Source: a virus
IMG/VR virus record: IMGVR_UViG_3300009551_000088
Span: 1 to 33,198 of that record
Length of the DNA stretch: 33,198 bases
Reading direction: 5' to 3' (one strand)
The translations under genes were made by a program, and so were the position numbers. The notes beneath the pieces are model-generated. The model made no database searches, was not told where the DNA came from, and saw nothing but the letters and a program-made list of their open reading frames with translations. Shown here piece by piece: positions 2-25,707 of the stretch; positions within the stretch are counted from its first letter, which is position 1, and each line of letters starts with the position of its first letter.

Positions 2-796
2 TTGGTCCCGCCTACTGTCCAATTGGGCAATAGCGGTATCGATCCCCCAGCCCAAGTGCCACAACGCGACATCATTGATGCGCAAATGGCTTTCTTCGGC
101 ACAGGTTGTATCATAAACGAGCAAGTAATTCTTCAAGACCAAGAGGGAGTCCTCGCTTGGGTGTCCGAGCGTCTTGCTGTTGCCATGAGACAGGCAGAGG
201 ATTTGATCCTTAGAGATTACATCCTTTCTGCTGCATCTGTGATCAACGCAGGCGGCGGCAACAACGGCGATAACCCGACTAACTTAGGTGTGTCGGATTT
301 CTCCCTAGTTGCGACTACATTGGATACCAACAATGCCTACAAATTTATGTCTGGCATTGAGGGCATGGACCGATTTGGTACAGGCCCAGTTCGTTCAGCT
401 TATTTCATGCTATCTAGCACGGAATTGCAAACGGACTTTGATGGTTTGACTGGCTCAGGATTCCTGTCCCAGTGGAACTATCCAACCAACGCGAGCGCAT
501 TGCCATCTGAGTATGGCTCGGTCTTCAACATCCGCATTCTGGTATCTTCAGAAGCGCCTGTTGCTAGACTTGCCTCGGCTAACGGACGCGATGTCTATTA
601 CAACTTTGTAATGGGCAAACAAGCGGTAACGCATATCAATCAGGATGGTTATTCCATGAACCTGATTTATCGCGATCCGTACTATTCTGGCATGTTGGCG
701 CAAAACGCTACCTTGGCGGTTAAATTCGCCCAGGCCCAAGCGATTACGCAAGATACTGCTATCCGAAACCTCGCTGCTACACGCAGCGGTAACTAA
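2..796 (+). CDS. Major capsid protein, N4-gp56 family (5' end outside window)
   Basis: This is the C-terminal 264 residues of the protein that forms the phage head shell. The frame is open at the left edge and no start context is visible, so the gene is truncated by the window. Blocks that match my recollection of N4-gp56-type capsid proteins are RDIIDAQMAFFGTG (about residues 22-35), the helix AMRQAEDLILRDY, the GTGPVRSAY strand, SEYGSVFNIRILVSSEAP near residue 170-185 and YRDPYYSGMLAQNA near the C terminus. These proteins are usually 300-400 residues, so roughly the N-terminal quarter is missing. It ends in TAA, and AAGGAGG directly after the stop serves the next gene. First visible gene of the late plus-strand operon. 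Confidence 0.85.
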   Translation: MVPPTVQLGNSGIDPPAQVPQRDIIDAQMAFFGTGCIINEQVILQDQEGVLAWVSERLAVAMRQAEDLILRDYILSAASVINAGGGNNGDNPTNLGVSDFSLVATTLDTNNAYKFMSGIEGMDRFGTGPVRSAYFMLSSTELQTDFDGLTGSGFLSQWNYPTNASALPSEYGSVFNIRILVSSEAPVARLASANGRDVYYNFVMGKQAVTHINQDGYSMNLIYRDPYYSGMLAQNATLAVKFAQAQAITQDTAIRNLAATRSGN

Positions 797-808
797 GGAG
801 GCAGCTAT

Positions 809-1939
809 ATGACAGAATATTCAAGAATGATGCACGGGACATTTACAACCGCTGCAACGCCTGTTGTACAGGTTATTAACTTGCCCTTCCAACCGACTAA
901 GGTCTATCTACGCAATATTACAGCCTATGATGAGCCTGCTCAGTATGCTGTAACAGAAGCATGGTGGGATTCTTTAGCGGATGCGCAAGGCACCGCCGAG
1001 ATGTACTATCTTGAGTCGGCTAGTGCGCCTTGGATTGTAGCAGCAGATTCCGTTGATACTGGTGGTATTTCTACCTTTAGCAATGGTCTTGCTCTTCAAT
1101 TAGGTGCGCAGTTGCAGATTAGCGGCATTACCAAAGCAAGCCCTGCTCAGGTAACCACCGCCAGCGCACACGGTCTTTCAACTGGTCAAATTGTCATTCT
1201 GGAAGGTCTCTATCAGTCTTCAACCACTGGTATGCCACAGCTTAGCAATATCCCATTTGTAATCACTGTGACAGGTGCTACAACCTTTACGATTCCGTTC
1301 AACACTAACCAGTCTAACTATACTGCACTCTCTGGCTCGCCAACGGGCGCATATGTTAGACAGATTACAGCTCCGAACTTGTACTTGCCAGGCGACAATT
1401 ATATCGCCAGCATTACCCTTTCGGGCACGAACGTTGTCGTAGCAACCACCTCAAATCACAACTTCGTTGTTGGCCAAGAGATTGCGTTCCGTATTCCAAG
1501 TGCATTTGGATCTACGCAGCTCAATAGCTTGCCAAACAACCTTATCCCAGGCTCGCCGATCTATTACTATGTGTCGGCAGTAGGGAGCAATACTTCCTTT
1601 ACTTGTACAGCATTGTCTGCTGGCGTAACTGCTTTCAACAGCAATCCAACTGTTGCAAGCGTTCCTGGCTTGACATGGGCGCAAGTATTGGCTGTAGGTG
1701 ATGTGAATACTGGTGGCACTCCTTATAGTGGCGGCGCATTGTACCCAAGCCCTTCCTTCCCGACATTCTCGGGCGGTGTGGCTACGATCAATGGTCCTGC
1801 TATTAGCGGCGCGTTTGTCAACAATACGGCCCAAGGATTCGTAATTGGACTTGGTGTAGGGGAAGTGCAGGCATCTGCATTACTTCTTGCAGCATCTTCA
1901 ATTTACGTATGGGAAGCATATAGATTCGATTCGGATTGA
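809..1939 (+). CDS. Head-surface/structural protein with two FCCH-like modules
   Basis: A 376-residue virion protein placed directly after the capsid gene, preceded by AAGGAGG at a good distance from ATG 809. I see two beta-rich modules. The first (about residues 110-190) carries SAHGLSTGQIVILEG and ends with an FTIP strand, the pattern of the small FCCH-like domains common in phage structural proteins. The second (about 200-360) carries FVVGQEIAFRIPSAFGSTQLN, then VLAVGDVNTGG and ISGAFVNN. The second module recurs as most of the protein encoded at 2555-3007, so the two are paralogs. Position suggests a head decoration or head-completion role; that is inference. No transmembrane segment or catalytic motif is seen. 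The stop TGA 1937-1939 is followed by the endonuclease gene. Confidence 0.7.
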   Translation: MTEYSRMMHGTFTTAATPVVQVINLPFQPTKVYLRNITAYDEPAQYAVTEAWWDSLADAQGTAEMYYLESASAPWIVAADSVDTGGISTFSNGLALQLGAQLQISGITKASPAQVTTASAHGLSTGQIVILEGLYQSSTTGMPQLSNIPFVITVTGATTFTIPFNTNQSNYTALSGSPTGAYVRQITAPNLYLPGDNYIASITLSGTNVVVATTSNHNFVVGQEIAFRIPSAFGSTQLNSLPNNLIPGSPIYYYVSAVGSNTSFTCTALSAGVTAFNSNPTVASVPGLTWAQVLAVGDVNTGGTPYSGGALYPSPSFPTFSGGVATINGPAISGAFVNNTAQGFVIGLGVGEVQASALLLAASSIYVWEAYRFDSD

Positions 1940-1962
1940 CCAAACATACGCATTTTGGTACT

Positions 1963-1989
1963 CTGGGCTCTCTTAAAATGGGAGCCCAG
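1963..1989 (+). promoter_or_regulatory. RNA hairpin burying the SD of the HNH gene
   Basis: CTGGGCTCTC (1963-1972) pairs with GGGAGCCCAG (1980-1989) across a 7-nt loop: ten pairs including one G-U. The 3' arm contains GGGAG (1980-1984), the only Shine-Dalgarno-like sequence in front of ATG 1993. In transcripts coming through from the capsid genes this stem would hide the ribosome-binding site. Sequestration of this kind is established for homing endonuclease genes of phage T4. A terminator role is unlikely because only three T residues follow. Confidence 0.65.
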
Positions 1990-1992
1990 TTT

Positions 1993-2526
1993 ATGAAGAT
2001 ATGCACCAAATGTGGACAATCCAAAGAATTAGAACTTTTTTGTTTAAACAAGAAAAGTAAAGACGGCAGAACTACAAGATGTAGGAAGTGCCATTCAGAA
2101 TCAGTAATGGCATGGGCTAGAAACAATCCCGAAAAACACCAAGCACATAGAGATACGGTTTGGCGAAATTATAGGATTAAACGCGGACTTTCTCTTGATA
2201 AACCAAGAAAGCCTCATAAAAAGTTAGGAGGAAGCATAGACCCTAACGGATATATGGTTTTTAGAGGCAATAAATGGATTGGGCATCCTTGTGCAGACAA
2301 ACGAGGAAGAGTTTCGCATCATCGGTTAGTTATGTTCGAAATTCTTGGAAGGCCATTAAAAGAGCATGAAACTGTGCACCATAAGAACGGCATTCGCCAT
2401 GACAACCGACCTGAAAATTTAGAATTATGGAGCAGCAATCACCCTCCAGGACAAAGAGTAGGTGATCAAATCGAATGGGCCATTGCGTTTCTCAAAGAAT
2501 ACGGATATAACGTAGAAAAAATTTGA
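1993..2526 (+). CDS. HNH homing endonuclease with N-terminal zinc finger
   Basis: A 177-residue free-standing homing endonuclease. It is expected to cut DNA at phage alleles lacking it and spread by repair. The N terminus has a treble-clef-like zinc knuckle, C4-x2-C7 and C30-x2-C33. The C-terminal nuclease runs from about residue 105: HHRLVMFEILGRPL, then ETVHHKNGIRHDNRPENLEL. H129/H130, N142 and H150 are candidate catalytic or metal residues. The frame is open upstream to a TTG at 1936, but I choose ATG 1993 because GGGAG lies 8 nt before it and translation then begins right at the zinc finger. It sits alone between two paralogous virion genes, which is typical of selfish insertion. Its RBS is buried in the hairpin just upstream. 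Confidence 0.88.
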   Translation: MKICTKCGQSKELELFCLNKKSKDGRTTRCRKCHSESVMAWARNNPEKHQAHRDTVWRNYRIKRGLSLDKPRKPHKKLGGSIDPNGYMVFRGNKWIGHPCADKRGRVSHHRLVMFEILGRPLKEHETVHHKNGIRHDNRPENLELWSSNHPPGQRVGDQIEWAIAFLKEYGYNVEKI

Positions 2527-2554
2527 GTCCAACCGTTGGACATCTAGGAGATAT

Positions 2555-3007
2555 ATGACATTCCCCCCAAATCAAGGCCCAAAAGCCCCAGAACGCAATC
2601 CAACACCAACCCCTCAGTATTATCAGCCTAGCGACTTCGAGATTACGGCTTTGACGCTTGGTGCTTCGACCACTGTGACCACTGCCGGCAATGTGAATTA
2701 TGTCGTTGGACAGCAGGTAAGGTTCTTGATCCCCTCCTTTTATGGGACATTTCAGCTCAATAATCTGGATGGATTTGTGACGTCTGTTCCGTCGGATACC
2801 CAAGTTGTCGTGAATATCAACAGCTCTAAGATGAACGCCTTCATCGCTAATCCAACATACGGCCCAACCAAACCTCAGATCATTGCTATAGGCGATGTAA
2901 ATACAGGCCAGACTATTCCAACGGGGAGAGCCGAGACCATGCAAGAGACGTCTATCCCTGGTGCCTTCATAAATATTAGTCCTTCTCCAGTTGGCACTTT
3001 TGTCTAG
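2555..3007 (+). CDS. Structural protein, paralog of the second module of the 809-1939 product
   Basis: A 150-residue virion protein with TAGGAG before ATG 2555. After a Pro/Asn-rich leader of about 25 residues it is a single beta-rich module: TTAGNVNYVVGQQVRFLIPS (about residues 43-62), YGTFQLNNLDGFV, IIAIGDVNTGQT, then SIPGAFINI near the end. Every block has a counterpart in the same order in the C-terminal half of the gene before the endonuclease (VGQEIAFRIPS, STQLNSL, VLAVGDVNTGG, ISGAFVNN). I know the IPS...QLN...GAF-N pattern from uncharacterised structural proteins of podovirus-like phages, so a head or neck surface role is likely. The two paralogs are now separated by the endonuclease gene. 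Confidence 0.7.
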   Translation: MTFPPNQGPKAPERNPTPTPQYYQPSDFEITALTLGASTTVTTAGNVNYVVGQQVRFLIPSFYGTFQLNNLDGFVTSVPSDTQVVVNINSSKMNAFIANPTYGPTKPQIIAIGDVNTGQTIPTGRAETMQETSIPGAFINISPSPVGTFV

Positions 3008-3059: not shown

Positions 3060-3647
3060 ATGGCTGAACGACCACAAGTTAAATCGGAATCGCAAAAAGA
3101 ACTCGACAAAGTAGAAATGCAATTCGACCAGTTTGAAAAGCAGCTAATGGCGCTTAGAGATATGCCCATGAGCAATGCAGAACAGACTGAAGCCCAAACC
3201 AAAATATCTACGAAGGAAGCCGTCCAAAGCGATGCTCCTTATCTGAAGCCAATAAGAACAATTGGTCCTGGCGTAAATCCAAAGTCCGGCGAAAAGGAAG
3301 CATTCAATGAGAAATTTCGCGCTCAATATGAATATGCCAAGCAATATGTGCGTGTGATCGCAGAGAACAATGAAATTGCAGGCGAGACTATTGAAGTATG
3401 GACAAAGCCTTTTGGCGGTCTAAATTGCGAGCTTTGGAAGGTGCCTACGAATAAGCCTGTGATGATCCCTAGATATTTGGCGTCTCAGCTCTCTACAAGG
3501 TAATATATCCGCTACACGATGGAAGAGCCAAGAATGACAGGCACAGAAGGCGGCCACCAATTCTATAGCGGCATGATTGGTAGAGATGTAAGAAGAAGGC
3601 TTGATTGCCGTCCTGTTGGAAATGTAAGCGTGTCGATGTTTAGCTAA
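3060..3647 (+). pseudogene. Conserved virion-operon gene interrupted by in-frame TAA (3501-3503)
   Basis: GAGG precedes ATG 3060. The first 147 codons encode a charged, helical N terminus and a conserved core: NEKFRAQYEYAKQYVRVIAE, then ETIEVWTKPFGGLNCELWKV and PTNKPVMIPRYLASQL. Codon 148 is TAA. The same frame then stays open for 47 codons (MEEPRMTGTEGGHQFYSGM, VRRRLDCRPVGNVSVSMF) and ends at TAA 3645-3647, sharing one base with the ATG of the next gene. As I recall, homologs in capsid operons keep a YHR-x-x-M and G-x-x-YG-type tail after the PRYLA block, which matches the extension. So the full gene is 195 codons with one premature stop. Truncation, readthrough or a sequencing error are all possible; coupling to the next start survives only if ribosomes reach 3645 or re-initiate, for example at ATG 3519. 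Function unknown. Confidence 0.75.
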
Positions 3648-4798
3648 TGAACCTACTTCAAGATGTCATCACTTACGTTCGGCGCATCGTCAAGACTCCT
3701 AGCAATTCGAGCCTTAGCGACAATCTGATCATAGACTACGTCAACCGATTTTGGCTGAATGACAGTGATGGCATCTTTCAATTATTCGATCTTAAGGTCA
3801 AATATACATTCCAAACGCAGCCAGGCATTAATCATTACAATATGCCTCTGTATAATACGAATGGGTATCCTACTCAGATTGAACCAGGAAACCAGTCGAT
3901 TTCTTATTATCCAGTCTACCAAGGGTTCTTTCAACCTGCATTCGTGAATGGCATTCAGGTGCCTTTCTACACGGACAGCGCAAGCTTTTATAATATTTGG
4001 CCTTTATATGTTCAGGCTCTTAATAACACTTTTGTCGGCGATGGGACTGCTGGTCCTTATTCTCTTACTTTGCCCAATTTTCCTGCTTTGGCGGGGTATA
4101 CGGACATTACTGGGGTCATTGCTGCTGGCTCTGCTACTGATCCTATCATTGCCGCTGCGCCTAATCCTGCTATTTCAAAGACCAGTATCAATCCGGCAGT
4201 TTATATAACGACGCAAGATGCTAGCCAAAACTTGATCCAAGTCAATGATACGGGGCAGTTCTTCAATCAGCCTGCATTGTCCGGTAATATGCAATTGGGC
4301 CTTTTGACGGGGAATGTAGGCGGTCTCTATAGCCAGACATCGAATGTCATAAATTACACCAATGGTCAGATGAACGTGACGTTTAGCACGAGCATTCCTG
4401 CTAATACGCCGATCAACTTACAATGCTTATTCTTTCAGCAAGGCATCCCTAGAGCGATATTATTCTACAATAACTGCCTATCTATTATGCCTCCGCCTGA
4501 CACGAACTATCAGATCGAACTGAATGCCTACCTTAGCCCCGCAGCATTCTTAACGACATCGACCGCTATTCCATTTGCCTACATGAGCGAATACATCGCC
4601 AGAGGCGCGGCGAGGAAGATTCTGACGGATACAGGGGATGTCGAACAATTCCAGTTCTACGAGCCGATCTTTAAAGAGCAGAGAGATTTGGTCTGGAAAC
4701 GCAGTCAGCGAATCAAAACAAGTCAAAGAACTGGAACCATCTTCAGCGAATTCAGTTCGCAATCCCCATCTAATAACTATGCAGGCGGAGGGAACTAA
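3647..4798 (+). CDS. Adaptor-like head-tail connector protein
   Basis: A 383-residue protein starting one base inside the previous stop (TAATG), so probably translationally coupled. The N terminus, LLQDVITYVRRIVKTPSN followed by LSDNLIIDYVNRFWL, has the helix-turn-helix layout of phage head-tail adaptor proteins that dock under the portal. The middle (about 60-290) is beta-rich with many Pro, Asn and Tyr. The C terminus returns to helices (YMSEYIARGAARKILTDTGD, then FQFYEPIFKEQRDLVWKRSQ), also as in such adaptors. At 383 residues it is longer than the compact T7-type adaptor, with an extra beta domain inserted. Order capsid - adaptor - nozzle supports the call. The assignment rests on layout and N-terminal pattern, not on a catalytic signature. 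Confidence 0.55.
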   Translation: MNLLQDVITYVRRIVKTPSNSSLSDNLIIDYVNRFWLNDSDGIFQLFDLKVKYTFQTQPGINHYNMPLYNTNGYPTQIEPGNQSISYYPVYQGFFQPAFVNGIQVPFYTDSASFYNIWPLYVQALNNTFVGDGTAGPYSLTLPNFPALAGYTDITGVIAAGSATDPIIAAAPNPAISKTSINPAVYITTQDASQNLIQVNDTGQFFNQPALSGNMQLGLLTGNVGGLYSQTSNVINYTNGQMNVTFSTSIPANTPINLQCLFFQQGIPRAILFYNNCLSIMPPPDTNYQIELNAYLSPAAFLTTSTAIPFAYMSEYIARGAARKILTDTGDVEQFQFYEPIFKEQRDLVWKRSQRIKTSQRTGTIFSEFSSQSPSNNYAGGGN

Positions 4799-12258: not shown

Positions 12259-13161
12259 TTAGTTAGATTCTTTATTCTCTAAAATTTCTATGTCTTCAGT
12301 AGTGGAATAAGGAAGAAATGCATTCACTTTTTCCATAAAATCTTCCCAAGACGAGCTAGATTTCATTAGCTTCCTTAACATGTAAATATGCGATTTTAAG
12401 TGAGTAACCCCTTGCTCTTTTGTCAACCACTGATGATGGCGACTGGCACGATGGCCCGTTGGCGTAATAGGGTTTCTTTCTTCAAGCATATCGACTAAAT
12501 TCGGCGCCATCCTTGCATAAACCAGGTCTTTTGTGTATTTAGCGATCACCCCTGGCCGATGCTGGATCTCTCGAGCAGGGTTCCATTTTTTTAATCGGAA
12601 AATCTCTAAATAAAATTCATCAGGGAATGTTTTTGCCCATTTTGCCGCCTCTTGGTTCAAATACTTGTCTAAAAGAAGCTGCAAAGCATTTTTATCCCGC
12701 AATTCCTGGTATCCGCAGGATTCGTCTACAAGGGCAGTGATCCCAATCTTTGCTAGAGATTTTTGGACTATTTTTGCAGATGCCGCAAATTTAGTTTGCC
12801 TTTCATCTAAATAACCTTTTTCTAAGGAATCGATATATAATTCACAAGTAAGAGGAAGAAGAGATGCGTCATACCCGATTGCGCGAGTCCCCGTGGGGAG
12901 CCTAAACTCAATAGGAGAGCTTGCAACAATTATCTCTTTTGTAATTAAGGGCTTGAAAACACTGGCGCGAAGGAATGGAGGAAGCTTTTCAGCCATAGCG
13001 CCGGCCCCTCCCTCGGGCCGCGATCGTCCCAAAGCTTTGTGCATGCCCGAAGAGGTCAATAGACGCCTGCCATCAGGAAGAACGGCGCATTGGATGTCTG
13101 CTATCCCCAGTTTCAAAATTCCGGATTTCACTGCTTTTGGCAAACTTTTCACATCTGACAT
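12259..13161 (-). CDS. P63C-domain protein (phage regulatory/antirepressor-like)
   Basis: A 300-residue protein read on the minus strand from the ATG at 13161, with CGGAG about 8 nt upstream. The N-terminal half starts with ADIQCAVLPDGRRLLTSSGM, then HKALGRSRPEGGAGA, FLRASVFKPLI and IGYDASLLPLTCELYIDS. The C-terminal third has LYARMAP-like AYARMAPN region and RHHQWLTKEQGVTHLKSHIY (about residues 241-260) followed by MLRKLMKSS: the signature of the P63C domain. P63C proteins are widespread in phages and mobile elements and are presumed regulators; their biochemistry is poorly known. The gene is alone with two membrane-protein genes between head and tail operons. A perfect palindrome overlaps its putative promoter, suggesting repression or autoregulation. 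Confidence 0.75.
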   Translation of the reverse strand: MSDVKSLPKAVKSGILKLGIADIQCAVLPDGRRLLTSSGMHKALGRSRPEGGAGAMAEKLPPFLRASVFKPLITKEIIVASSPIEFRLPTGTRAIGYDASLLPLTCELYIDSLEKGYLDERQTKFAASAKIVQKSLAKIGITALVDESCGYQELRDKNALQLLLDKYLNQEAAKWAKTFPDEFYLEIFRLKKWNPAREIQHRPGVIAKYTKDLVYARMAPNLVDMLEERNPITPTGHRASRHHQWLTKEQGVTHLKSHIYMLRKLMKSSSSWEDFMEKVNAFLPYSTTEDIEILENKESN

Positions 13162-13419: not shown

Positions 13420-15507
13420 ATGTCTTTCAATCCCCTGACAGCACCTCAAGGCGCCAATCTCTCAACCGTCGGGTTTGGCTATCGTCCTGAGAATGTCGAA
13501 ATCCCTTTCATCTCAACTGTTTCCCCAACATCTTCTAACATCGGGCCTCCTGGCGCGCCTTTCCCTGTTGGTAAGAGATGGATCAATACTCTGACGAACA
13601 ACGAATATGTGTTGACCTCAGTTGCTTCTTCAGCGGGATCAATTGCTGCTAACTGGATTAGCATTAACGCTGGCGCAGGATCGGTTAATAGCATCAACGG
13701 CCTTACTCCTTCCGGTGGCAACATTACGATTGCAGGGACAGCCAACCAGATTGGCGTGTCGAATGCAGGTTCGACCGTAACGCTTTCGGTTCCTAGCTCC
13801 TTTGCTGTACCAGGAACAATGACTGTGGCAAGCAATGCTGCATTCAATGGTCCTGTTGCGATCAATGATGGTGTGACTGTTACTGGGGGCTTGACCCTGG
13901 ATAGCATCACGATTTCAGGGAACGTAACCCTCGGAAACACCGCGGGCGATATCGTGGCTCTTGGAAACACCAGTGGCGCAACTGCTGTGACGATTGCGGT
14001 AGGTACTGGCAACTTTGCCCTTTCTGGTGCTGCAGGATCGACTGTCACCATTGGCACTGGTCTTACTACTGGCACTATCCTGATCGGTGGTACCGCAGAG
14101 ACGGGGACTATAACTCTTGGCTCGTCTTCTGGGACTAACACAGTTGCAATTGGCGCTGGAGCAGGAGCAACCACGGTCAACATAGCCCAAGGCAATGGCG
14201 GCAATACTGTCGCGATGGGCGGCGGGACGGGTACTAATACAATTAACATAGGTCACGGCGCGGGCACTAATACGATCTCTATCGGAGATTCTGCGACTGG
14301 CGTGGAAACGATCACAATCGGCTCTGCTAACTCCACAAGCGGCATGACGCTGAAGGTTGGAACAAGCAACTTCGTTCTAGATGGTGCTGCAAGTTCTACT
14401 TATGCAGTTGGTGCATCTACAACAACAGGCACCATTACAATCGGCGGGACAGCGCAGACAGGTGATCTAGTATTAGGCTCTTCATCTGGCACCAATGCCG
14501 TAAAAATCATGAATGGAGCAGGAGCTGGTACATTGAGCTTAGGCGTTGTGCAAACAGCTGGCGCAATCAATGCCGGTACCGCGATGACAACAGGGACAAT
14601 CACGATTGGCGGCACTGCTCAGACAGGCACAATCACCCTTGGTTCATCTTCGGGGACTAACACACTGGTAATTGCTGGCGGAGCGGGAGCGACAACGCTT
14701 CAATTGGCAAATGTCCAGACAGCAGGCTCTGTTGCTGTCGGCGCAGGCATGACCACCGGCACGATCACTATAGGTGGCACAGCCCAAACTGGAACATTGA
14801 CTTTGGGAAGCTCTTCTGGAACCAATACTCTTGTGATTGCAGGTGGTGCAGGCGCCACTGCGGTACAGATCGCCAACGTCCAAACAGGCGGCTCAGTAGC
14901 AATTGGTGCTGGCATGTCAACGGGAACTATCGCAATTGGCGGCGCTCAGACAAGTGGTACGATCTCCATCGGTGGCGGCGTGCAAACAGGCACCATTACT
15001 GTGGGCGGTGGCACTGGCGCACAGATAGTGAACCTTGCAACTGGCGCAACTGGCGTTAAGACTGTCCATATTGCGGATTCTGCTGTAGCCAACGTTGTCA
15101 CCCTTGGATCAACCACTGGAGCAGCTTCTACAACAATCCAAGCAGGCTCGCTTGGCATTACGCTTACAGGCGCTGTAGTTGCTTCGACAGACGTTACATC
15201 TACCGCGGGAAACATCATCATCAACGGAGCCGCAAAACAGCTTAGAGTTCATGGTGGCGCTGTAACCGACTTTATCGGCCAAGCGACACTTGTAAACGGC
15301 ACATTAGACGTAGCGAACACGAATATCGCCTCAACGGACCGTATTTTTATCACAAGATCGGCTAAGAACGCCTCGACAGCGTATGGCTCGTATACTACAA
15401 CCATTACCGCAGCGACCAAATTTAACATCACTGCGCAAAAAGCAGACACTACAACCGAAACAAATGATGTATCGACACTTGACTATTTCATCGTAAGACA
15501 AGTCTAA
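13420..15507 (+). CDS. Repeat-built tail fibre/adhesin, 695 residues
   Basis: AAGGAG precedes ATG 13420. The N-terminal ~70 residues include PFPVGKRWINTLTNNEYVL and AGSIAANWISI, an attachment-type module that returns in the 21978-22787 product. From about residue 120 to 590 the protein is a run of short Gly/Thr/Ile repeats (TGTITIGGTAQTG, LGSSSGTNT, AGAGATTV), as in trimeric beta-helical or beta-solenoid fibre shafts. The C-terminal cap (about 590-695) reads QLRVHGGAVTDFIGQATL, IASTDRIFITRSAKN and DYFIVRQV, a cap domain I know from several phage and giant-virus fibre proteins. It lies outside the cell as part of the virion and probably contacts the host surface. It is the first gene of a 10-kb fibre array. 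Confidence 0.7.
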   Translation: MSFNPLTAPQGANLSTVGFGYRPENVEIPFISTVSPTSSNIGPPGAPFPVGKRWINTLTNNEYVLTSVASSAGSIAANWISINAGAGSVNSINGLTPSGGNITIAGTANQIGVSNAGSTVTLSVPSSFAVPGTMTVASNAAFNGPVAINDGVTVTGGLTLDSITISGNVTLGNTAGDIVALGNTSGATAVTIAVGTGNFALSGAAGSTVTIGTGLTTGTILIGGTAETGTITLGSSSGTNTVAIGAGAGATTVNIAQGNGGNTVAMGGGTGTNTINIGHGAGTNTISIGDSATGVETITIGSANSTSGMTLKVGTSNFVLDGAASSTYAVGASTTTGTITIGGTAQTGDLVLGSSSGTNAVKIMNGAGAGTLSLGVVQTAGAINAGTAMTTGTITIGGTAQTGTITLGSSSGTNTLVIAGGAGATTLQLANVQTAGSVAVGAGMTTGTITIGGTAQTGTLTLGSSSGTNTLVIAGGAGATAVQIANVQTGGSVAIGAGMSTGTIAIGGAQTSGTISIGGGVQTGTITVGGGTGAQIVNLATGATGVKTVHIADSAVANVVTLGSTTGAASTTIQAGSLGITLTGAVVASTDVTSTAGNIIINGAAKQLRVHGGAVTDFIGQATLVNGTLDVANTNIASTDRIFITRSAKNASTAYGSYTTTITAATKFNITAQKADTTTETNDVSTLDYFIVRQV
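14434..14928 (+). repeat. Three tandem 55-residue protein repeats (165 nt each)
   Basis: Inside the fibre gene, units starting at 14434, 14599 and 14764 each encode ITIGGTAQTG, then LGSSSGTN, a Gly/Ala-rich loop, VQTAG or VQTGG and a final M(T/S)TGT. Units 2 and 3 are nearly identical as protein, but their codons differ at most shared residues (see findings). The repeat is therefore hard to see at DNA level. Confidence 0.75.
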
Positions 15508-15516
15508 GGGGAATAA

Positions 15517-15699
15517 ATGCTTAAGAACCTATCGACTCTTGAACATAAAATCGAAGATCGGATCTATCAATTCGTATGCGCATCTAACGCGCCTCTTGGT
15601 GAGGTGCACGATGCGCTGGTTAAAATGAAGGCATTTGTAATTGGAAAAATCCAAGAAGCACAAAAGGCAGAAGAGCCAAAAGAGGAGAGTCCCCAATGA
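15517..15699 (+). CDS. 60-residue helical protein in fibre operon
   Basis: A short gene with GGGG-AATAA before ATG 15517. The product is helical and charged: LSTLEHKIEDRIYQFVCASN, then VHDALVKMKAFVIGKIQE, then an acidic Glu/Lys/Pro-rich end (EEPKEESPQ). There is no signal peptide or membrane segment. I recognise no family. It overlaps the next gene by four bases (ATGA), so its expression is tied to the fibre operon. It might be an assembly chaperone or a virion accessory protein. Confidence 0.55.
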   Translation: MLKNLSTLEHKIEDRIYQFVCASNAPLGEVHDALVKMKAFVIGKIQEAQKAEEPKEESPQ

Positions 15700-16058
15700 G
15701 TTTAGCTGTAAGGGCAAATTATGACACCCTTCGTTCCTTAGCTTTTGGCTCCATAAGCGGAACCTATGCAGCTTTGGGAACGGCTTTCACTCGGCCAGTG
15801 AGAGTTTTTAAAATAGTAAACAACACTGACGGCGACGTTTTTATAAGCACAGATGGATCTAATGATATGGATTTCATCCCTGCTAATAGCTTCGTTCTCT
15901 ATGACCTATCATCAAACAGAGAAATCACTGCGGGGGTATTTGAATTGCCCGCTGGCACACAGTTTTTTGTGAAGCAAAGCACGGCTCCCACGAAAAACGC
16001 TGTTTACCTGGTCGTTTTTAAAGCTCTGCCAATTAACCCGGCTCCTAATAATCTATGA
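15696..16058 (+). CDS. Conserved phage structural protein, 120 residues
   Basis: The gene starts in an ATGA overlap. The protein is a compact beta domain: YDTLRSLAFGSISGTYAALG, FTRPVRVFKIVNNTDGDVFI (about residues 32-51), STDGSNDMDFIPANSFVLYD, LSSNREITAGVFELPAGTQF, FVKQSTAPTKNAVYLVVF. I recall this layout (R-x-x-K-I-x-N-x-T-D-x-x-V-x-I-S-x-D-G ... F-x-L-Y-D) from uncharacterised structural proteins in many phages and prophages. Its exact position in the particle is not established as far as I know. Its place inside the fibre array suggests a tail component. Confidence 0.6.
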   Translation: MSLAVRANYDTLRSLAFGSISGTYAALGTAFTRPVRVFKIVNNTDGDVFISTDGSNDMDFIPANSFVLYDLSSNREITAGVFELPAGTQFFVKQSTAPTKNAVYLVVFKALPINPAPNNL

Positions 16059-16957
16059 TGCAATCTGGACAGCCTAAAAAGCCCGATCCTGAGTATGAAG
16101 TACGATTAGCTGAGATGGAGCGCAAGTACTCAGCTATCTTGGAGAAAATCCAAAAATACGATGCTGGGTTAGCCAAGATATTTGAATTTTCAGCGCGCCT
16201 GGATGATGTTATCGCCAAGCTAAATGCTCACATTAGCGACTACGTGCAGTTCAGAGAGAACCAAGAAAAGTCTTTCTGGAGCACGGACAAGATCATAAAA
16301 AACCACGAAACTGTCCATGTGAACCTTAAGGCTGATTTCCAAAATGTAAGCACTAGGGTCGAACAATATGACAAGCAACATATTGAAAATCTTGCGACGA
16401 TTGGTAAATCGGTCGGGGCTCTGAATGAGAAGCTGAACCATATTGCCAATGTGGTCATTGATAAAGATCAGATGCAAGAGATCATGGAGCATGTGTTGCT
16501 GCAGATCGAAGGGGTTGCCAATAGCAAACAGCCCCTTATAGCGGAGATCGATAAGCTAAAGATCGATAACTATAGGCTTTCTGAGGCTATACGGCAGATT
16601 CAGGAAATCCCTCAAAAGCTATCCGATAAAATGCAATCAATGGGGCAGTCGATCGGGGTCTTGGAAAGCAATTTGAAGCGCGACATAACCCATGTTTCGG
16701 ATGCACAAGACGTGTCATTTAAGATCTTTATGCAGGACTGCGAGAAGAAGCTGGCCGATTGGAAAGTGGAAATATTGGGCACGCCTACAGCCAACTTGAA
16801 GGTTAAGGAAGAGTTAGAACAAAAGATGCAAATGGCCCAGCTCGACGGCTCCAATGCTGTGATTAAAGTGAATAACGTAGAGCAGCAGATTAAGCTTTTA
16901 GAGAAAAAGCTGGAAAACTTACAACTTCAAGTGAAGAGAAACGAGCTTGCAAAATGA
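16055..16957 (+). CDS. 300-residue coiled-coil protein
   Basis: Starts at ATGATG overlapping the previous TGA. Almost the entire chain is heptad-rich helix: VRLAEMERKYSAILEKIQKY at the start, ENLATIGKSVGALNEKLNHI in the middle, and VEQQIKLLEKKLENLQLQVK at the C terminus. It has no hydrophobic membrane segment and little sign of a globular domain. It could be a long rod in the virion (a fibre stem or whisker) or a trimerising scaffold for the neighbouring fibres. It is coupled on both sides by four-base overlaps with fibre or structural genes, which favours a tail role. No family recognised. Confidence 0.55.
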   Translation: MMQSGQPKKPDPEYEVRLAEMERKYSAILEKIQKYDAGLAKIFEFSARLDDVIAKLNAHISDYVQFRENQEKSFWSTDKIIKNHETVHVNLKADFQNVSTRVEQYDKQHIENLATIGKSVGALNEKLNHIANVVIDKDQMQEIMEHVLLQIEGVANSKQPLIAEIDKLKIDNYRLSEAIRQIQEIPQKLSDKMQSMGQSIGVLESNLKRDITHVSDAQDVSFKIFMQDCEKKLADWKVEILGTPTANLKVKEELEQKMQMAQLDGSNAVIKVNNVEQQIKLLEKKLENLQLQVKRNELAK

Positions 16958-17463
16958 GCCAAGCAGGTGCATTAACTGAAGGCGGCAACGCGCCAGGAGG
17001 TAATGTTGACCAAATCGACGCTGACATCGGTTTTGCTGTTCCTCTTGCTGGCGTTATTAACATTTTTGGCGGGTCTGGCGTTAGTACATCAGCCAGTGGA
17101 AATACTGTCACCATCAACGTATCTGGAACTGGGTTCACATGGAATGTAGTTACGAGCGCAGACAATCCTGTGACATTGGCTCCGAACAATGGCTATATCA
17201 CAAAAGGAGCCAGTGCGGTGCAATTTACGCTGCCTGCGTCTGCCTCGATCGGCGACGATTACAGAATCGTAGGGTATGCGAATCTGTGGACGATTGCACA
17301 AAATGCGAATCAGACAATGACGTTAGGGGTACGGACTACCACGGCTGGAGTAACTGGATCGCTCACCGCGACAGCCGTAAACGACTCGATAGAGTTGGTG
17401 AATGTGACAAATAATCTGGAATGGGTCATAACGGATTCGGTGGGCAATCTAACGATTGTGTAA
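16954..17463 (+). CDS. Tail-fibre protein with TF-type C-terminal head
   Basis: A 169-residue protein starting in an ATGA overlap. Its N terminus MSQAGALTEGG resembles that of the 19328-21028 product (MSQAGMLEKNGG), which suggests a shared anchoring tag. A short GSGVSTSASGNTVTINVSG shaft leads to a C-terminal domain of about 110 residues with W-x(10)-NNGYITKGASAVQFTLPASA, then IGDDYRIVGYANLWTIAQN, a TMTLGVRTTT loop, SIELVNV and WVITDSVGNLTIV. The same domain type ends the 18011-18601 and 19328-21028 products. I know this domain as a receptor-facing C-terminal head of phage fibre-like proteins. The shaft is one of the shortest in the array. Confidence 0.65.
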   Translation: MSQAGALTEGGNAPGGNVDQIDADIGFAVPLAGVINIFGGSGVSTSASGNTVTINVSGTGFTWNVVTSADNPVTLAPNNGYITKGASAVQFTLPASASIGDDYRIVGYANLWTIAQNANQTMTLGVRTTTAGVTGSLTATAVNDSIELVNVTNNLEWVITDSVGNLTIV

Positions 17464-17480
17464 AAGATAAGAGCAGCGTA

Positions 17481-17504
17481 CCATCTCCATCATAAAAGGA
17501 GTGG
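17481..17504 (+). promoter_or_regulatory. RNA hairpin burying the SD of the second HNH gene
   Basis: CCATCTCC (17481-17488) can pair with GGAGTGG (17498-17504), seven pairs with one bulged T, across the loop ATCATAAAA. GGAG (17498-17501), 6 nt before ATG 17508, is part of the stem. The arrangement repeats that of the intact endonuclease gene at 1993 although the sequences differ, so the shared feature is the structure. Confidence 0.5.
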
Positions 17505-17507
17505 GGT

Positions 17508-18010
17508 ATGCTAAGAGTTTGCAAGGATTGTGGAGAACAAAAAGAGCTAAATAAGTTTGTCAACCAGAACGGCAAATATCGCTTTAAGTGTAAAGAATGC
17601 AAGAACAAGGCGCGAAGAACTGGAAGGCCGAACGAAGGCAAATTTAAGCCTGGACATGACAAAGGAGTAAGGTTCCAGAAAGGCCATACTCCCTGGTACA
17701 AAGTGAAGGGTGTGCCGCCTCCTGCTAAAGGAAATGTAGATCGGGACAATTTTAACAGATTCTCGAGCCATCGATATAAGGTTTGGCGTGAGGCGGTCTT
17801 TGAAAAGCATGGGAAAAATTGTAAACTTTGCCAGAATGATAAAAGAGTGTGAATACATATCTTAAATCATGGAAGGAAGACGAAGGCTTGAGATTTGACC
17901 CAGAAAATGGGATTCCTCTTTGCTGCTCATGCCATGGGAGTTTAGAGGCCTTGATAAGAAAAAACAAAAAAGAAAAAGATTTGATAGAAAGACAATCCAA
18001 GGTAAACTAA
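17508..18010 (+). pseudogene. Decayed HNH homing endonuclease (nonsense plus 1-nt deletion at the active site)
   Basis: The first frame encodes 114 residues: a zinc finger (CKDCGEQKELNKF ... CKECKNKAR), a GRPNEGKFKPGHDKG / FQKGHTPWYKVKG segment typical of HNH homing enzymes, then FSSHRYKVWREAVFEKHG and CKLCQNDKRV. It stops at TGA 17850-17852. The nuclease continues: ATA CAT (I-H) follow in the same frame, two bases (17859-17860) break the frame, and from 17861 the reading LKSWKEDEGLRFDPENGIPL, CCSCHGSLEAL runs to TAA 18008-18010, touching the ATG of the next gene. An intact ancestor would read V-x-I-H-H-L-K-S-W, so one base is missing in the second His codon of the HH motif and the preceding codon has become TGA. 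The enzyme is therefore expected to be dead. It is inserted between two fibre genes. Confidence 0.8.
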
Positions 18011-18601
18011 ATGGCCACTGGTAATTCGATCAATGCTAACGGAGTAGGTCTGGCCAAATACGATGGCGCAGGCACGTGGTCAACAACCACGGTCACCCAG
18101 CACAGCGTGCTTATAGGCGGCTCATCCAACGCAATCACTTCGCTTGCCCTGACAAATGGTCAGCTTGCAATTGGCTCTACGGGAGCCGATCCAAGCGCAG
18201 CCACGCTAAGCGCTGGAACAGGTATTAGCATTTCAAACGGCGCAGGATCGATTACTATTAGCGGGATTGGAGCTGGCCTTACATGGTCAACTATCACAGC
18301 GAACCAGACAGCGGCGATCAATAACGGCTATGTTTGTAATAAGTCCGGGACACTTGTTCTGACAATGCCAGGAACAGCGGCTGTAGGAACCGTCATCGCA
18401 GCGGCTAATCTCAATACAACCAACGGGACGCAATTTTTGAGCGCCAACCCAGGCCAATTGACTCTTGGGATTGCATCAGCAACAGCGAATACAGGAACGT
18501 TTACAAGCACGCAGTTAGGCGATATGATTTTCTTGGTCTGTGTCGTGGCCAATACAACGTGGTTCGCCTATGGCGTACAAGGGAACTGGACGGTAGCGTA
18601 A
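18011..18601 (+). CDS. Tail-fibre protein, TF-type C-terminal head
   Basis: A 196-residue protein directly after the endonuclease remnant. The N terminus MATGNSINANGVGLAKYDG parallels that of the 21030-21884 product (MAEANSINSSAAGIV), a second type of N-terminal tag. The shaft module TQHSVLIGGSSNAITSLAL, GQLAIGSTGADPSAATLSAG, TGISISNGAGSITISG occurs twice more in the 19328-21028 product. The C-terminal half (from LTWSTITANQ) is the same head type as in the 16954 gene: NNGYVCNKSGTLVLTMPG, QLTLGIAS, GDMIFLVCVVANTTWFAYG. It is a virion protein probably contacting the host. TAA 18599-18601 overlaps the next ATG by one base. Confidence 0.65.
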   Translation: MATGNSINANGVGLAKYDGAGTWSTTTVTQHSVLIGGSSNAITSLALTNGQLAIGSTGADPSAATLSAGTGISISNGAGSITISGIGAGLTWSTITANQTAAINNGYVCNKSGTLVLTMPGTAAVGTVIAAANLNTTNGTQFLSANPGQLTLGIASATANTGTFTSTQLGDMIFLVCVVANTTWFAYGVQGNWTVA

Positions 18602-19326
18602 TGGTAACAAATAGCGCCGGCAACTTAGCAACAGGTACTAGCGGGCAAATAGTGGTGGGCCAAGGCTCTGGCTCTACGCCTCTATTTAAGACACCGACTG
18701 CCGGAACTGGGCTAACGGGCACTTTCAATACCACAACGCATGACTATGCATTGACAATACCGGTTGCTAAAACTAGCGGTGGTAGCGGTTCAACGAACTT
18801 CACGGGCAATAGAACTCTTTTAGGCACTCAGTCCCCTACAGGAACAACTGCAGTGTTCAATAGCTGGACGACTGGCTATCAATACTATTTATGTGAGTTC
18901 ATCGAAGTAATCCCTACAACAACCTCCACGCGTCTAGAAATCGCCTTTTCAACGGATGGTGGCTCTACTTATACCAACGTGACCTGGGACAATGGCGGCT
19001 TTGATGCTGCTTCCACAGGTGGCGGGTCTTTTGTAGCCAACTCCGGCGTCTCGGCTACTCCTGATATCTTGCTCGGCAACGTTCAGACCAACAACGCCGA
19101 TGAAGGGGTAAATGGCTGGCTTTACTTATGGGGACTAGATTCCTCGGGAACTTTTCGAAAAGTCATGCATCAATACATTACGCATCCTACAGGTACCAAT
19201 AGCATGACATTTCGCAATATCGGCTATCACGTGCGTCTGACAACCCAAGTCACTGGCTTGAGATTTATCTATAGCGGAGCAGGCGGCTTTGCCTCGGGAA
19301 CGATTAACTTCTATGGGGTAAACTGA
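18601..19326 (+). CDS. Tail-fibre protein with jelly-roll-like C-terminal head
   Basis: A 241-residue protein. The frame is open a little further upstream, but ATG 18601 overlapping the previous TAA (TAATG) gives a clean coupled start. The short shaft is SAGNLATGTSGQIVVGQGSG, TGLTGTFNTTTHDYALTIP. The head (about residues 85-241) has YQYYLCEFIEVIPTTTSTRL, EIAFSTDGGSTYTNVTWDNG and RFIYSGAGGFASGTINFYGV: alternating strands ending in a G-x-I-x-F-Y-G signature. The 21030-21884 product has a head of the same type ending SGTFTWYGL. This differs from the TF-type heads of the neighbouring genes, so two head types alternate along the array. Confidence 0.62.
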   Translation: MVTNSAGNLATGTSGQIVVGQGSGSTPLFKTPTAGTGLTGTFNTTTHDYALTIPVAKTSGGSGSTNFTGNRTLLGTQSPTGTTAVFNSWTTGYQYYLCEFIEVIPTTTSTRLEIAFSTDGGSTYTNVTWDNGGFDAASTGGGSFVANSGVSATPDILLGNVQTNNADEGVNGWLYLWGLDSSGTFRKVMHQYITHPTGTNSMTFRNIGYHVRLTTQVTGLRFIYSGAGGFASGTINFYGVN

Positions 19327-19327
19327 T

Positions 19328-21028
19328 ATGTCGCAAGCAGGGATGCTAGAAAAAAACGGCGGGTCGGGTGGCTCAAGTATCAATGCGATTCAAGTAGACG
19401 CATCTACACCTCCAGGCACCAATCCTGTCGTACCGAACGCTGCGAACTTGTTAACAATGACAGGGGCGCAAGTTGCTGCGGGAACGACTTCTAATGTCAT
19501 ACGCACAGATTCCGTTGCTGCGAATACGGTAACGATTGAGGTGCAGAGATCTCAAGCGGTTGCCTCTTCGACGATAGGCGACAATGGCGTTTCGCATTTC
19601 GATTCGCACTTTTTCACCGTAGACGCGAACGGCTTTGTAAGCTTTACAGGGACAGGCGCAGCTGAGACGTTGACAGGCAATAGCGGTGGTGCCGTAGGCC
19701 CCACTGCAAACAACATCAATACCGTCGGAACTGGCTCGATTACGATTGTAGGCAATCCTGGGACAAGCACGCTTACGACAGAATTGACAGGACTGACAAA
19801 TCATTCTCTTCTCGTGGGAGCAGGAACGCCCACGATCACTAGTTTAGGCGTTTCTACAGATGGACAGCTTCCAATTGGTTCGACTGGAGCCGATCCGGTG
19901 TTGGCCACATTGACTGCCGGAACTGGTATATCCATCACAAACGGGGCAGGATCAATTACGATTGCAGCGAATGGATCAGCGGTTGTTGAGACACTTACAG
20001 GGAATACAGGCGGTGCAATTAGCCCTACGGCAGGAAATATTAATACTGTCGGCACGGGATCTATCACAATAGCAGGATCTGGATCTACGCTAACAACTCA
20101 ATTAACGGGCCTCACAGCACACGATGTTTTGATAGGCGCAGGAACAGCTACTATCGGACTTGTCGCTCCAAGCGCAACGAGTGGCGTACCGCTTATTAGT
20201 CAAGGCGCAGCGGCTGATCCGGTGTTTGGCACGGCTGTCGTTGCTGGCGGCGGGACTGGAGCAACTACGCTTACAAATCACGGCGTGCTTTTAGGACAAG
20301 GGTCCTCCGCCGTTGTTGCCACTGCGGTTGGCGCTACAGGCACCGTTTTAGCAGGCAATACGGGTGCTGATCCAACATTTCAGACTATAGCCGCAGCTGG
20401 CGGCATTACGACGATCACAGGGAATACAGGTGGGGCCGAAAGTCCACTAGCTGGAAATTTCAATATCGTTGGCACTGGGAGCATTACTGTTGCAGGATCG
20501 GCGAATACGGAGACAGTACAACTTACAGGCCTAACTAATCACTCGTTGCTTGTAGGTGCAGGGACAGCCACAATCACCAATCTTGGTGTGGCGACGAATG
20601 GCCAATTGCCGATAGGCAGCACAGGCGCAGACCCAGTTTTAGCCACATTGACCGCTGGAACCGGCATTTCGATTAGTAATGGAGCTGGCAGCATAACGAT
20701 TGCTGCTACCGCCCTTACCACTTGGACAGACAACGGAACAAATTTTAATGCCGCAGTAAATAACGGCTATTTCACAACGGCAGCGCTAACAGCGACCCTT
20801 CCTGCAAGCCCTTCCCAAGGCGACACGATCGTATTTATAGCGGATACAGCTTCCCAGCTCACAATTTCTGCAAATACCGGACAAATTATTCGTATCGGGT
20901 CGGCTACATCAACAGCTGCGGGAACTGCAAAAAGCAATGCTATCGGTGACTCGGTTACTTTGACCTATAGAGCCGCCGATACGACATGGCTGGCAAGATC
21001 TGTAAACGGAACATGGACAACGGCATAA
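19328..21028 (+). CDS. Long repeat-built tail fibre, 566 residues
   Basis: The start MSQAGMLEKNGGSGG shares its tag with the 16954 gene. The shaft contains three copies of an ETLTGN(S/T)GGA...NTVGTGSITI...LTGLT module and two long copies (from 19796 and 20534) of TNHSLLVGAGT, QLPIGSTGADPVLATLTAGT, GISI(T/S)NGAGSITIAA. The C-terminal head (about residues 460-566) is of the TF type: NNGYFTTAALTATLPASPSQ, GDTIVFIADTASQLTISANT, GQIIRIGSATST, DTTWLARSVNGTWTTA. The two long copies use different synonymous codons at most positions. It is the longest fibre in the second half of the array and probably forms a trimer exposed on the virion. Confidence 0.68.
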   Translation: MSQAGMLEKNGGSGGSSINAIQVDASTPPGTNPVVPNAANLLTMTGAQVAAGTTSNVIRTDSVAANTVTIEVQRSQAVASSTIGDNGVSHFDSHFFTVDANGFVSFTGTGAAETLTGNSGGAVGPTANNINTVGTGSITIVGNPGTSTLTTELTGLTNHSLLVGAGTPTITSLGVSTDGQLPIGSTGADPVLATLTAGTGISITNGAGSITIAANGSAVVETLTGNTGGAISPTAGNINTVGTGSITIAGSGSTLTTQLTGLTAHDVLIGAGTATIGLVAPSATSGVPLISQGAAADPVFGTAVVAGGGTGATTLTNHGVLLGQGSSAVVATAVGATGTVLAGNTGADPTFQTIAAAGGITTITGNTGGAESPLAGNFNIVGTGSITVAGSANTETVQLTGLTNHSLLVGAGTATITNLGVATNGQLPIGSTGADPVLATLTAGTGISISNGAGSITIAATALTTWTDNGTNFNAAVNNGYFTTAALTATLPASPSQGDTIVFIADTASQLTISANTGQIIRIGSATSTAAGTAKSNAIGDSVTLTYRAADTTWLARSVNGTWTTA

Positions 21029-21029
21029 T

Positions 21030-21884
21030 ATGGCAGAAGCCAATAGCATAAATTCATCCGCAGCAGGAATAGTAACCAATACAGGGACTGGATTTACTTC
21101 ATCCACAGTTACGCAACATGGCGTATTAGTTGGCGGAGCTTCTAATGCAGTTTCAAGCACATCTGTCGGTTCAACAGGTCAAGTTTTACAGGCAAATTCA
21201 AGCGCCGATCCTACATATAGCACTGCTACCTATCCTTCGACGGCTACAGGCACGGGCAAGATTTTAAGAGCCGACGGGACGAACTGGGTAGCAACCACAG
21301 CGACTTATCCAAATACGGCAGGGACATCTGGGAACGTACTTACTTCGGACGGAACAAACTGGAATAGTTCGGCATCTTCTGGTGTAGGCGGATGGGTTAA
21401 GATTACAACAACAACAGCGTCCAGTTCAGCTTCGATTTCCTTTAATGACACAGCTTATTCAAATTATGTTTTGGTAGTAAACGATTCACTTCCTGCTACC
21501 AATACCACAACTTTGCAATGTCAATTTACCACAAATAGCGGGTCAACTTATGTAGCAACCAGCTATCAATCTGGCCTGAATAATGCTCAATATAATTCTG
21601 CTTCTTTTGGAAATACAAGTAGCACAACCTTCACCCTTTTAGCAGGCGCACAAGATAGCGCTGGATCTATAGGTATTAGTGGGACTTTCTTTTTCTATGG
21701 GTTTAATACTCCTACAGCCAACTTTTCATGTCGCGGGAATGCTACATTTATGTTTGGTGGTCAAACTTTTATGGCCATAGCCGCTACAGGACATGCCACA
21801 ACGGGAGCAAATGGAATAAAAATCACCTTTAGCTCTGGAAACATAGCATCGGGGACTTTCACTTGGTATGGGCTGGCAACATGA
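21030..21884 (+). CDS. Tail-fibre protein with jelly-roll-like C-terminal head
   Basis: A 284-residue protein two bases after the previous stop. The N-terminal tag MAEANSINSSAAGIVTN resembles the 18011 gene. The shaft has VTQHGVLVGGASNAVSSTSV, GSTGQVLQANSSADPTYSTA and two ATYP...T-x-G-x-(I/V)L-x-(A/S)DGTNW units. The head (about residues 125-284) contains YSNYVLVVNDSLPATNTTTL, QCQFTTNSGSTYVATSYQS, GNTSSTTFTLLAGAQ and ends SGTFTWYGLAT, the same type as the 18601 gene. Its TGA overlaps the start of the small lipoprotein gene by four bases (ATGA). Confidence 0.62.
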   Translation: MAEANSINSSAAGIVTNTGTGFTSSTVTQHGVLVGGASNAVSSTSVGSTGQVLQANSSADPTYSTATYPSTATGTGKILRADGTNWVATTATYPNTAGTSGNVLTSDGTNWNSSASSGVGGWVKITTTTASSSASISFNDTAYSNYVLVVNDSLPATNTTTLQCQFTTNSGSTYVATSYQSGLNNAQYNSASFGNTSSTTFTLLAGAQDSAGSIGISGTFFFYGFNTPTANFSCRGNATFMFGGQTFMAIAATGHATTGANGIKITFSSGNIASGTFTWYGLAT

Positions 21885-21985
21885 AATATATAATTATTGC
21901 ATTACTCCTCTGCGGTTGTATGCCATATGGCGGTGAAGAGTTTGATTTGAAAGTTGAGCCAATTAAGGAAGAGCATCATGCCTGA
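21881..21985 (+). CDS. 34-residue lipoprotein nested between fibre genes
   Basis: ATG 21881 overlaps the preceding TGA; TGA 21983-21985 lies inside the start of the next gene. The product begins MKYIIIALLLCGCMPYGGEE: a short basic start, a hydrophobic core and a lipobox L-C-G-C, with lipidation expected at C13, leaving a mature peptide of 22 residues rich in Glu. Candidate roles are a superinfection-exclusion lipoprotein masking the receptor used by the adjacent fibres, or a very small outer spanin; neither has direct support. Overlaps on both sides argue that it is real and made together with the fibre proteins. It implies an envelope with lipoprotein processing. Confidence 0.65.
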   Translation: MKYIIIALLLCGCMPYGGEEFDLKVEPIKEEHHA

Positions 21986-22787
21986 TTATACAGCTACCTT
22001 TCTAGATGCATTAGCAGTCGGCAGGACTGGCAGTGATGCCTTTATCACGCACTTCAATACACGCGATCCTACGCCCCAAGATATTAACTACCCTGTGCAA
22101 AAGCGCTGGGTCAACACTGACAATAATACCGAGTGGATATTGCTCGGCTTTCTTTCCACAGGCGGCGTCATAACAGCTAATTGGCTAGAGCTGATTTCTG
22201 GGTCTGGCATTACCGAAACGCTTACAGGCAATACTGGAGGAGCTGTATTTCCCGACGGAAGTAACAACATAAATGTTATCGGCGATACAACGACAGTAAA
22301 CATTGCTGGTAATCCTGGCACACACACATTAACGGTGTCTGCAGTAGCTGAAATCCCCACTTCATTCGTTACCGACTCTGGAACGGCCACACCTATTGCA
22401 CATGTTTTGCGCGTGGTGGGAGGAACGAACGTATCTACTTCAGGACTTACCAATACCATCACTATCAATAGCACATCGACACAGTTCGCTTTTAATTATA
22501 CGAACGTGAATCATGCGGCATCTCCCTATACCGTGCTTACGACAGATAACTATATTTCTGTGGACTGTTCCGGGGGAGTGGTTACGCTCAATTTCCCCAA
22601 TACGCCAGTTGCCAAGCAGATTTGGATCATAAAGGACCGCACGGGCAGCTGCGCAACAAACAACATAACGATTACTACTCCAGGTGGAACTGACACATTT
22701 GACGGGCAGACAAGCTTAATAATGGACAGCAATTACATGTCCTTAAATCTTTTAGCAAATGCAAGCCACAATTACGAGGTCTGGTAA
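21978..22787 (+). CDS. Tail-fibre protein with attachment module
   Basis: A 269-residue protein. I choose ATG 21978 (AAGGAAGAG just upstream, product MPDYTATFLDALAVG) over more upstream non-ATG possibilities. Residues about 30-70 carry QDINYPVQKRWVNTDNNTEW and GGVITANWLELISG, matching the N-terminal module of the 13420 gene (PVGKRWINT, IAANWISI). Then come the array shaft unit TETLTGNTGGAVFPDGSNNI and a second shaft type, SFVTDSGTATPIAHVLRVVG, GTNVSTSGLTNTITINST. The C-terminal part has the NYTNVNHAASPYTVLTTDNY, ISVDCSGGVVTLNFPNTP pattern followed by IWIIKDRTGSCATNNITITT, familiar from C-terminal domains of phage fibre proteins. Overlaps the next gene by one base. Confidence 0.65.
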   Translation: MPDYTATFLDALAVGRTGSDAFITHFNTRDPTPQDINYPVQKRWVNTDNNTEWILLGFLSTGGVITANWLELISGSGITETLTGNTGGAVFPDGSNNINVIGDTTTVNIAGNPGTHTLTVSAVAEIPTSFVTDSGTATPIAHVLRVVGGTNVSTSGLTNTITINSTSTQFAFNYTNVNHAASPYTVLTTDNYISVDCSGGVVTLNFPNTPVAKQIWIIKDRTGSCATNNITITTPGGTDTFDGQTSLIMDSNYMSLNLLANASHNYEVW

Positions 22788-23527
22788 TGGGATATGTAGG
22801 AAGAGGAACGAATACTCAAGTTTTAAGCGACCATACAGGCGGGACGCTGCCTAATTTCCAGACTATTAGCTCTACTGGTGCAATAACTCAGATAAAACCT
22901 CAGATATTTACTTCTTCAGGAACATATACCCCAACTATAGGCATGAAATATATACAGTGTATATGTGTAGGAGGGGGCGGTGGCGGAGGCGGCACAGCAA
23001 ATGCGGCGGCCAGCACACTTACAACAGGCGGCTGTGGTGGAGGTGGGGCAACATCTTATATTATTTTAAGCGCCGCTTCAATAGGAGCTTCACAAGCAGT
23101 AACAATTGGGGCTGGAGGAACAGCTGGGGCGTCAGGGAATAATGCGGGAGGGAATGGCGGAACAACTTCTTTGGGAATTTTATGTACCGCTCCTGGAGGG
23201 TCTGGGGGTCCTGGAAGTGCTGGCAGCGGAGCTGTTACAGGGGGGGCTGGAGGAATAGCCGGAGTGGGAGATTTTTCAATGCCTGGGCAAAATGGCGGGA
23301 GCGTAAATCAAACCTCGACGATTAACTTTGTTCCTGATGGAGGGAATTCTTTATTTGGTTTTGGTGGTCAAAACGACTGGGTGCATCCGTCACCGAACGC
23401 TGGGTTCCCAGGAAAAAATTACGGGGGCGGAGCATGCGGCGGGGGGTCATTTAATGGAAACGGAGCAGCTGCTGGGGCTGTTGGAGCGCCTGGCATTGTG
23501 ATAATCACAGAATACATTAGCACCTAA
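22787..23527 (+). CDS. Glycine-rich receptor-binding-type adhesin
   Basis: A 246-residue protein coupled through TAATG; the last gene of the fibre array. Residues about 45-60 (QIFTSSGTYTPTIGMKYIQC) are the F-x-x-S-G-T-x-T-P-x-x-G-x-K-x-x-x-V opening of a glycine-rich tail domain. It is followed by very Gly-rich loops (VGGGGGGGGTANAA, GGAGGIAGVG, YGGGACGGGSFNGNGAAAG) and a terminal GAPGIVIITEY strand. This matches the class of polyglycine-rich phage tip proteins in which loops between polyglycine strands recognise the host surface. It is likely the distal receptor-binding component. Four Cys residues are present, unusual for an extracellular phage tip. The 63 bases after the stop, before the convergent minus-strand gene, show no terminator. 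Confidence 0.65.
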   Translation: MGYVGRGTNTQVLSDHTGGTLPNFQTISSTGAITQIKPQIFTSSGTYTPTIGMKYIQCICVGGGGGGGGTANAAASTLTTGGCGGGGATSYIILSAASIGASQAVTIGAGGTAGASGNNAGGNGGTTSLGILCTAPGGSGGPGSAGSGAVTGGAGGIAGVGDFSMPGQNGGSVNQTSTINFVPDGGNSLFGFGGQNDWVHPSPNAGFPGKNYGGGACGGGSFNGNGAAAGAVGAPGIVIITEYIST

Positions 23528-25538: not shown

Positions 25539-25707
25539 TGATAATCTCCAATGCTTGAGAAAAGGCTTTAGTGGCTCTGGTTAAGTAGGTTTTTGCCTCT
25601 CTGATAACTTCTAAGTTCTCTTCAGAGGCCCCTTGAGAAAGCAAAGTCAAGCATGTATCTAACTTATATAAATATTCTATGGGATTGCGTGTGGGCATTT
25701 TAGCCAT
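25531..25707 (-). CDS. 58-residue wedge protein between annealase and exonuclease genes
   Basis: ATG at 25707, TAA at 25531-25533. The product starts MAKMPTRNPIEYLYKLDTCL and continues as helices: SEENLEVIREAKTYLTRATK and AFSQALEIING. It overlaps both the recT-like gene (25700-25707) and the exonuclease gene (25531-25538) by eight bases, in the same ATGG(C/T)TAA style, and GGAG lies 7 nt before its ATG. No known family. Being locked between the two halves of a recombination pair suggests it acts with one of them or adjusts their stoichiometry; this is inference. Confidence 0.6.
   Translation of the reverse strand: MAKMPTRNPIEYLYKLDTCLTLLSQGASEENLEVIREAKTYLTRATKAFSQALEIING

Follow-up and report, generated by a model that had tools for sequence, protein, structure and literature searches.

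When examining a virus record of 33,198 bases (the window, meaning here the whole stretch of DNA that was analyzed), we noticed a phage gene of 190-200 codons, conserved throughout its group, which lies between capsid and tail genes, in a place like that of gp55 in phage N4, and is cut at codon 148 by a nonsense codon private to this copy. The interruption looks like an isolated point change, and it is very probably either a genuine nonsense allele carried by the phage that was sampled or a mistake in the assembled consensus. Were the allele real, termination at the TAA would leave a product of 147 residues, missing the last three strands of a beta domain, and less translation would be expected for the following gene, whose ATG shares a base with the natural stop.

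Reading frame and homologues

The frame begins at ATG 3060 on the plus strand and runs for 147 codons to a TAA at 3501-3503. Past this stop, 47 codons are open in the same frame (YIRYTMEEPRM...SVSMFS; 3504-3644) and are closed by a TAA at 3645-3647, which has one base in common with the ATG at 3647-3649. All of this agrees with a preliminary description of the window, as does its remark that overlaps of this kind recur in the operon, the second one being formed by TAA 4796-4798 and ATG 4798. An open run of at least 47 codons is unremarkable by itself, being found after 9% of all plus-strand stop triplets in the window; the extension was therefore judged real because of its homology.

No relatives of the gene came up when 50,697 annotated phages were searched directly with tblastn or when IMG/VR was scanned with the gene as a single query sequence; they were supplied by the capsid gene and then by a family alignment. 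The window starts with this capsid gene (2-796, plus strand), of the N4-gp56 type (TIGR04387, 68.8 bits with a cutoff of 60), whose 5' end is lost at the contig end. With the capsid protein as the query, 80 loci were fetched from IMG/VR. Wherever at least 2.2 kb of sequence follows the capsid gene (72 loci), a homologue of the interrupted gene is there; the 8 loci lacking one are cut off no more than 1.43 kb past the capsid gene. In tblastn with the frame read through the stop, the alignment crosses codon 148 in 71 of the initial loci. Further homologues came from a second scan with the family alignment and from a scan of GTDB contigs, giving a set of 124 distinct homologous DNA stretches from IMG/VR and some GTDB contigs. 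Two of these, L071 and L167, lie at or near a contig end and cover the C terminus only partly.

No stop was found at codon 148 or elsewhere within the matched part of any of the 124 stretches. Codon 148 is a sense codon in every one and encodes a variable residue (Ser in 30, Lys in 20, Phe in 18, Tyr in 14, and others), and Tyr149, directly after the TAA, is conserved in 120 of them. The homologues thus align on both sides of codon 148, and those with enough sequence all run past the equivalent of residue 147 rather than ending there. When a profile of the homologues' C termini was run against the six-frame translation of the window (1,249 stretches), 3504-3644 matched with an E value of 2.8e-13, the runner-up having 0.4. 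The preliminary description had held that the extension looked like real protein and like the C terminus of homologous proteins; judged by this homology, it is the gene's true C terminus. By the identity of the read-through frame to the homologues, the stretch at 3060-3503 is the front three quarters of the interrupted gene, encoding its N-terminal helix and the first part of its beta domain.

The gene belongs by whole-length homology, including the C terminus, and by its neighborhood, between the capsid gene and the gene starting at 3647, to a family from uncultured phages of about 40 kb (IMG/VR loci L002-L203; alignment A1). The other members are uninterrupted, with intact homologues of 182 to 212 amino acids compared with 195 codons for the full frame of the window; the window copy alone is broken, by its private TAA. 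Sequence identities between the read-through frame and 65 homologues range from 37 to 49%. No near-identical DNA turned up when the sequence around the stop was used in a scan, and the closest relatives found share only about 50% of their residues.

Some copies from this phage group (L162-L167) were found in metagenome-assembled "bacterial" genomes, for example Simkania and Patescibacteria bins, mostly on contigs of about 33 to 40 kb. Rather than prophages, these are probably phage contigs that ended up in bacterial bins.

Integrity of the window

We searched for further breaks by aligning 2,583 reading frames from relatives to the window and looking for internal stops or changes of frame. The stop at 3501 falls inside 124 alignments. 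The next-ranked positions, 794 and 1937, are natural gene ends, and none of the remaining internal-stop positions, which were not traced individually, is shared by more than 19 alignments. A single frame change was flagged, and it is no break, being located at the natural boundary of the capsid gene. Other conserved genes of the window end where those of relatives end, and the gene with the TAA at 3501 is the only one in the conserved part for which a break was detected. With no other homology-supported break found in the window, general decay of the contig was rejected, and the suggestion of a defective phage in the preliminary description is not borne out.

The genes ending at 796, 4798, and 8948 are terminated by TAA at the end points of their relatives. 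TAA is a genuine stop at these places, and the code is therefore unchanged. No tRNA gene was found in the 33,198 bases.

A free-standing HNH_3 endonuclease gene (1936-2526, likely start at 1978; Pfam E value of 1.1e-7) is inserted between two virion-region genes which seem to be adjacent in several relatives, and a second HNH_3 gene is found at 30790-31290 on the minus strand. Within the long plus-strand late operon, a gene on the minus strand encodes a P63C domain (12259-13161; Pfam E value of 7e-29, phrog_2384 E value of 3e-90); it is absent in all seven relatives compared and is a possible moron. A YqaJ exonuclease and RecT/Bet form a lambda-type recombination pair at 24681-26452 on the minus strand. 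The tail-fiber-like genes at 13420-23527 have modules in common among themselves and with relatives in shuffled order, and single frames of relatives match several of them. The contig begins within the capsid gene and the region upstream of that gene, which is about 11 kb in one relative, is mostly missing; the genomes of relatives are about 39 to 43 kb.

Predicted effect of the stop

An AlphaFold2 model of the full frame was built with 66 sequences (mean pLDDT of 84). It shows a helix at the N terminus and a beta domain, with strands 148-154, 173-179, and 181-185 all past the stop, and it places the break in the loop separating helix 138-145 from strand 148-154. According to the model, the 147-residue product would be without these three beta-strands, which are part of the core, and we infer loss of function for it.

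The natural stop and the next start form a TAATG at 3645-3649. An anti-Shine-Dalgarno check found no ribosome-binding site at ATG 3647, and translation of the next gene is therefore probably dependent on ribosomes arriving at the TAATG. If the stop is real, it would probably exert a polar effect, with reduced translation of the gene at 3647.

Origin of the stop

A real nonsense mutation and a consensus error are in our estimate equally probable, each a little short of an even chance, the other explanations together taking up the small remainder. A fixed real allele would be somewhat odd, as a lytic phage population should lose a nonsense codon in a universally kept gene. On the other side, the ratio of identity after to identity before the stop is 0.70 for the window compared with 0.886 ± 0.09 for the homologues, although 4 of 65 homologues are equally low. 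This extra divergence after the stop hints, on sequence comparison, at relaxed constraint and thus at a real, older allele. In the ratio of C-terminal to N-terminal branch length, computed on a fixed tree, intact homologues stand ahead of the window, which is 5th of 61 tips.

The preliminary description offered programmed readthrough as a third option beside mutation and sequence error, and this part was not supported. Occasional insertion of an amino acid at the TAA would yield the short form as the main product and the long form as a minor one, which would agree with an intact frame and an extension made of homologous protein. All 124 homologues make the long form only, so that the stop, and with it a pair of short and long forms, is conserved in none of the relatives. 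The base after the TAA is T, and TAA followed by T is an efficient termination context. RNA folding past the stop is ordinary (z of -0.2 to 0.8), which leaves neither a permissive context nor a notable 3' structure, and the window has no tRNA gene. Readthrough thus seems highly improbable. The idea that the phage or its host decodes TAA as an amino acid has the open frame in its favor and nothing more; the conserved genes with their ends at 796, 4798, and 8948 and the gene's own frame at 3645 all end in TAA. Recoding across the genome was rejected on these grounds, and we give this explanation next to no weight.

Slightly better placed than readthrough, and still very unlikely, is a functional split gene, in which translation stops at 3503 and restarts at ATG 3519, the pieces of 147 and 42 residues assembling into a working protein. 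This in-frame ATG lies 15 bases past the TAA and encodes a Met (Met154) conserved in 92% of the homologues, the break falls within a loop of the model, and the restart frame (3519-3647) runs to the TAATG at which the gene is naturally coupled to the next. Against this, 3519 has no ribosome-binding site, its anti-Shine-Dalgarno energy being no better than that of 40% of random positions; a restart there would skip the greater part of strand 148-154 and with it Tyr149, which hardly varies; and none of the 124 homologues is split. Taken more broadly, a functional interruption, whether as a two-piece protein (stop 3501, restart 3519) or as a stop tolerated via host suppression, is improbable, and we know of no suppressor for this stop. 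On the preferred reading, the interruption is a nonsense codon of the ordinary kind, private to this sequence, or else a sequence error, and involves no novel way of making proteins.

Significance and comparison with known systems

For annotation, a gene caller would list a 147-amino-acid gene here, which is really the front of a gene of about 195 codons, and the significance of the finding beyond correct annotation is small. The analysis also yielded, usefully, a family of capsid-region proteins from uncultured phages of about 40 kb that is well sampled and free of interruptions and resembles a strongly diverged counterpart of N4 gp55.

No convincing Pfam, NCBIfam, or PHROG model was found for this family. 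Foldseek found nothing meaningful for the model in the PDB; in BFVD it returned entries from uncultured phages and a 237-amino-acid protein of Achromobacter phage Axy24, with an E value of 1.7e-5 and a probability of 1.00 but a TM score of only 0.37. In Axy24, the protein with this length is Axy24_061, an N4 gp55 orthologue encoded between the capsid gene and the structural gene that follows. In N4, the gene order is capsid gp56, gp55, gp54; gp54 is the tail tube (PMC12633501), and gp55 is one of the 14 core genes of N4-like phages, with unknown function (PMC4193335). The window keeps the order of capsid gene, interrupted gene, and gene in the place of gp54, with two to three genes (809-3007) intervening. 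The gene in the place of gp54 (3647-4798, plus strand) is intact, has a weak SU10 adaptor match (E value of 3e-4, below the gathering score), and is a tail-gene candidate.

The preliminary description had called the interrupted gene a virion or structural gene, a label that is not borne out. The virion mass spectrometry table of phages Moo19 and B2 has the capsid (gp73/gp36) and the tail tube (gp71/gp34), with nothing numbered between them (PMC11654681). The positional counterpart thus went undetected in these virions, which favors an assembly factor. By this analysis, the gene more likely encodes an assembly factor than a structural protein, and its product is probably not a virion component.

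The likeness to the N4 gp55 family, a Schitoviridae core gene family (phrog_2130), consists of a comparable place in the gene order, apart from the intervening genes, a similar length, and the tentative fold match. It comes without similarity of sequence profiles: hhalign between the window's family and gp55 was not significant (probability of 0.5%, E value of 0.13), and the window's family has no match to phrog_2130, which gp55 members do match. We did not assign membership in the gp55 family because sequence profiles fail to connect the two families, and "gp55-like" is used here for structural and positional resemblance. The phages differ in size as well, the genomes of the window's relatives being about 40 kb compared with about 72 kb for phages with N4 gp55. 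The stop itself, which no tested feature separates from ordinary phage nonsense mutations, is like them a single in-frame stop in a conserved gene that is otherwise intact.
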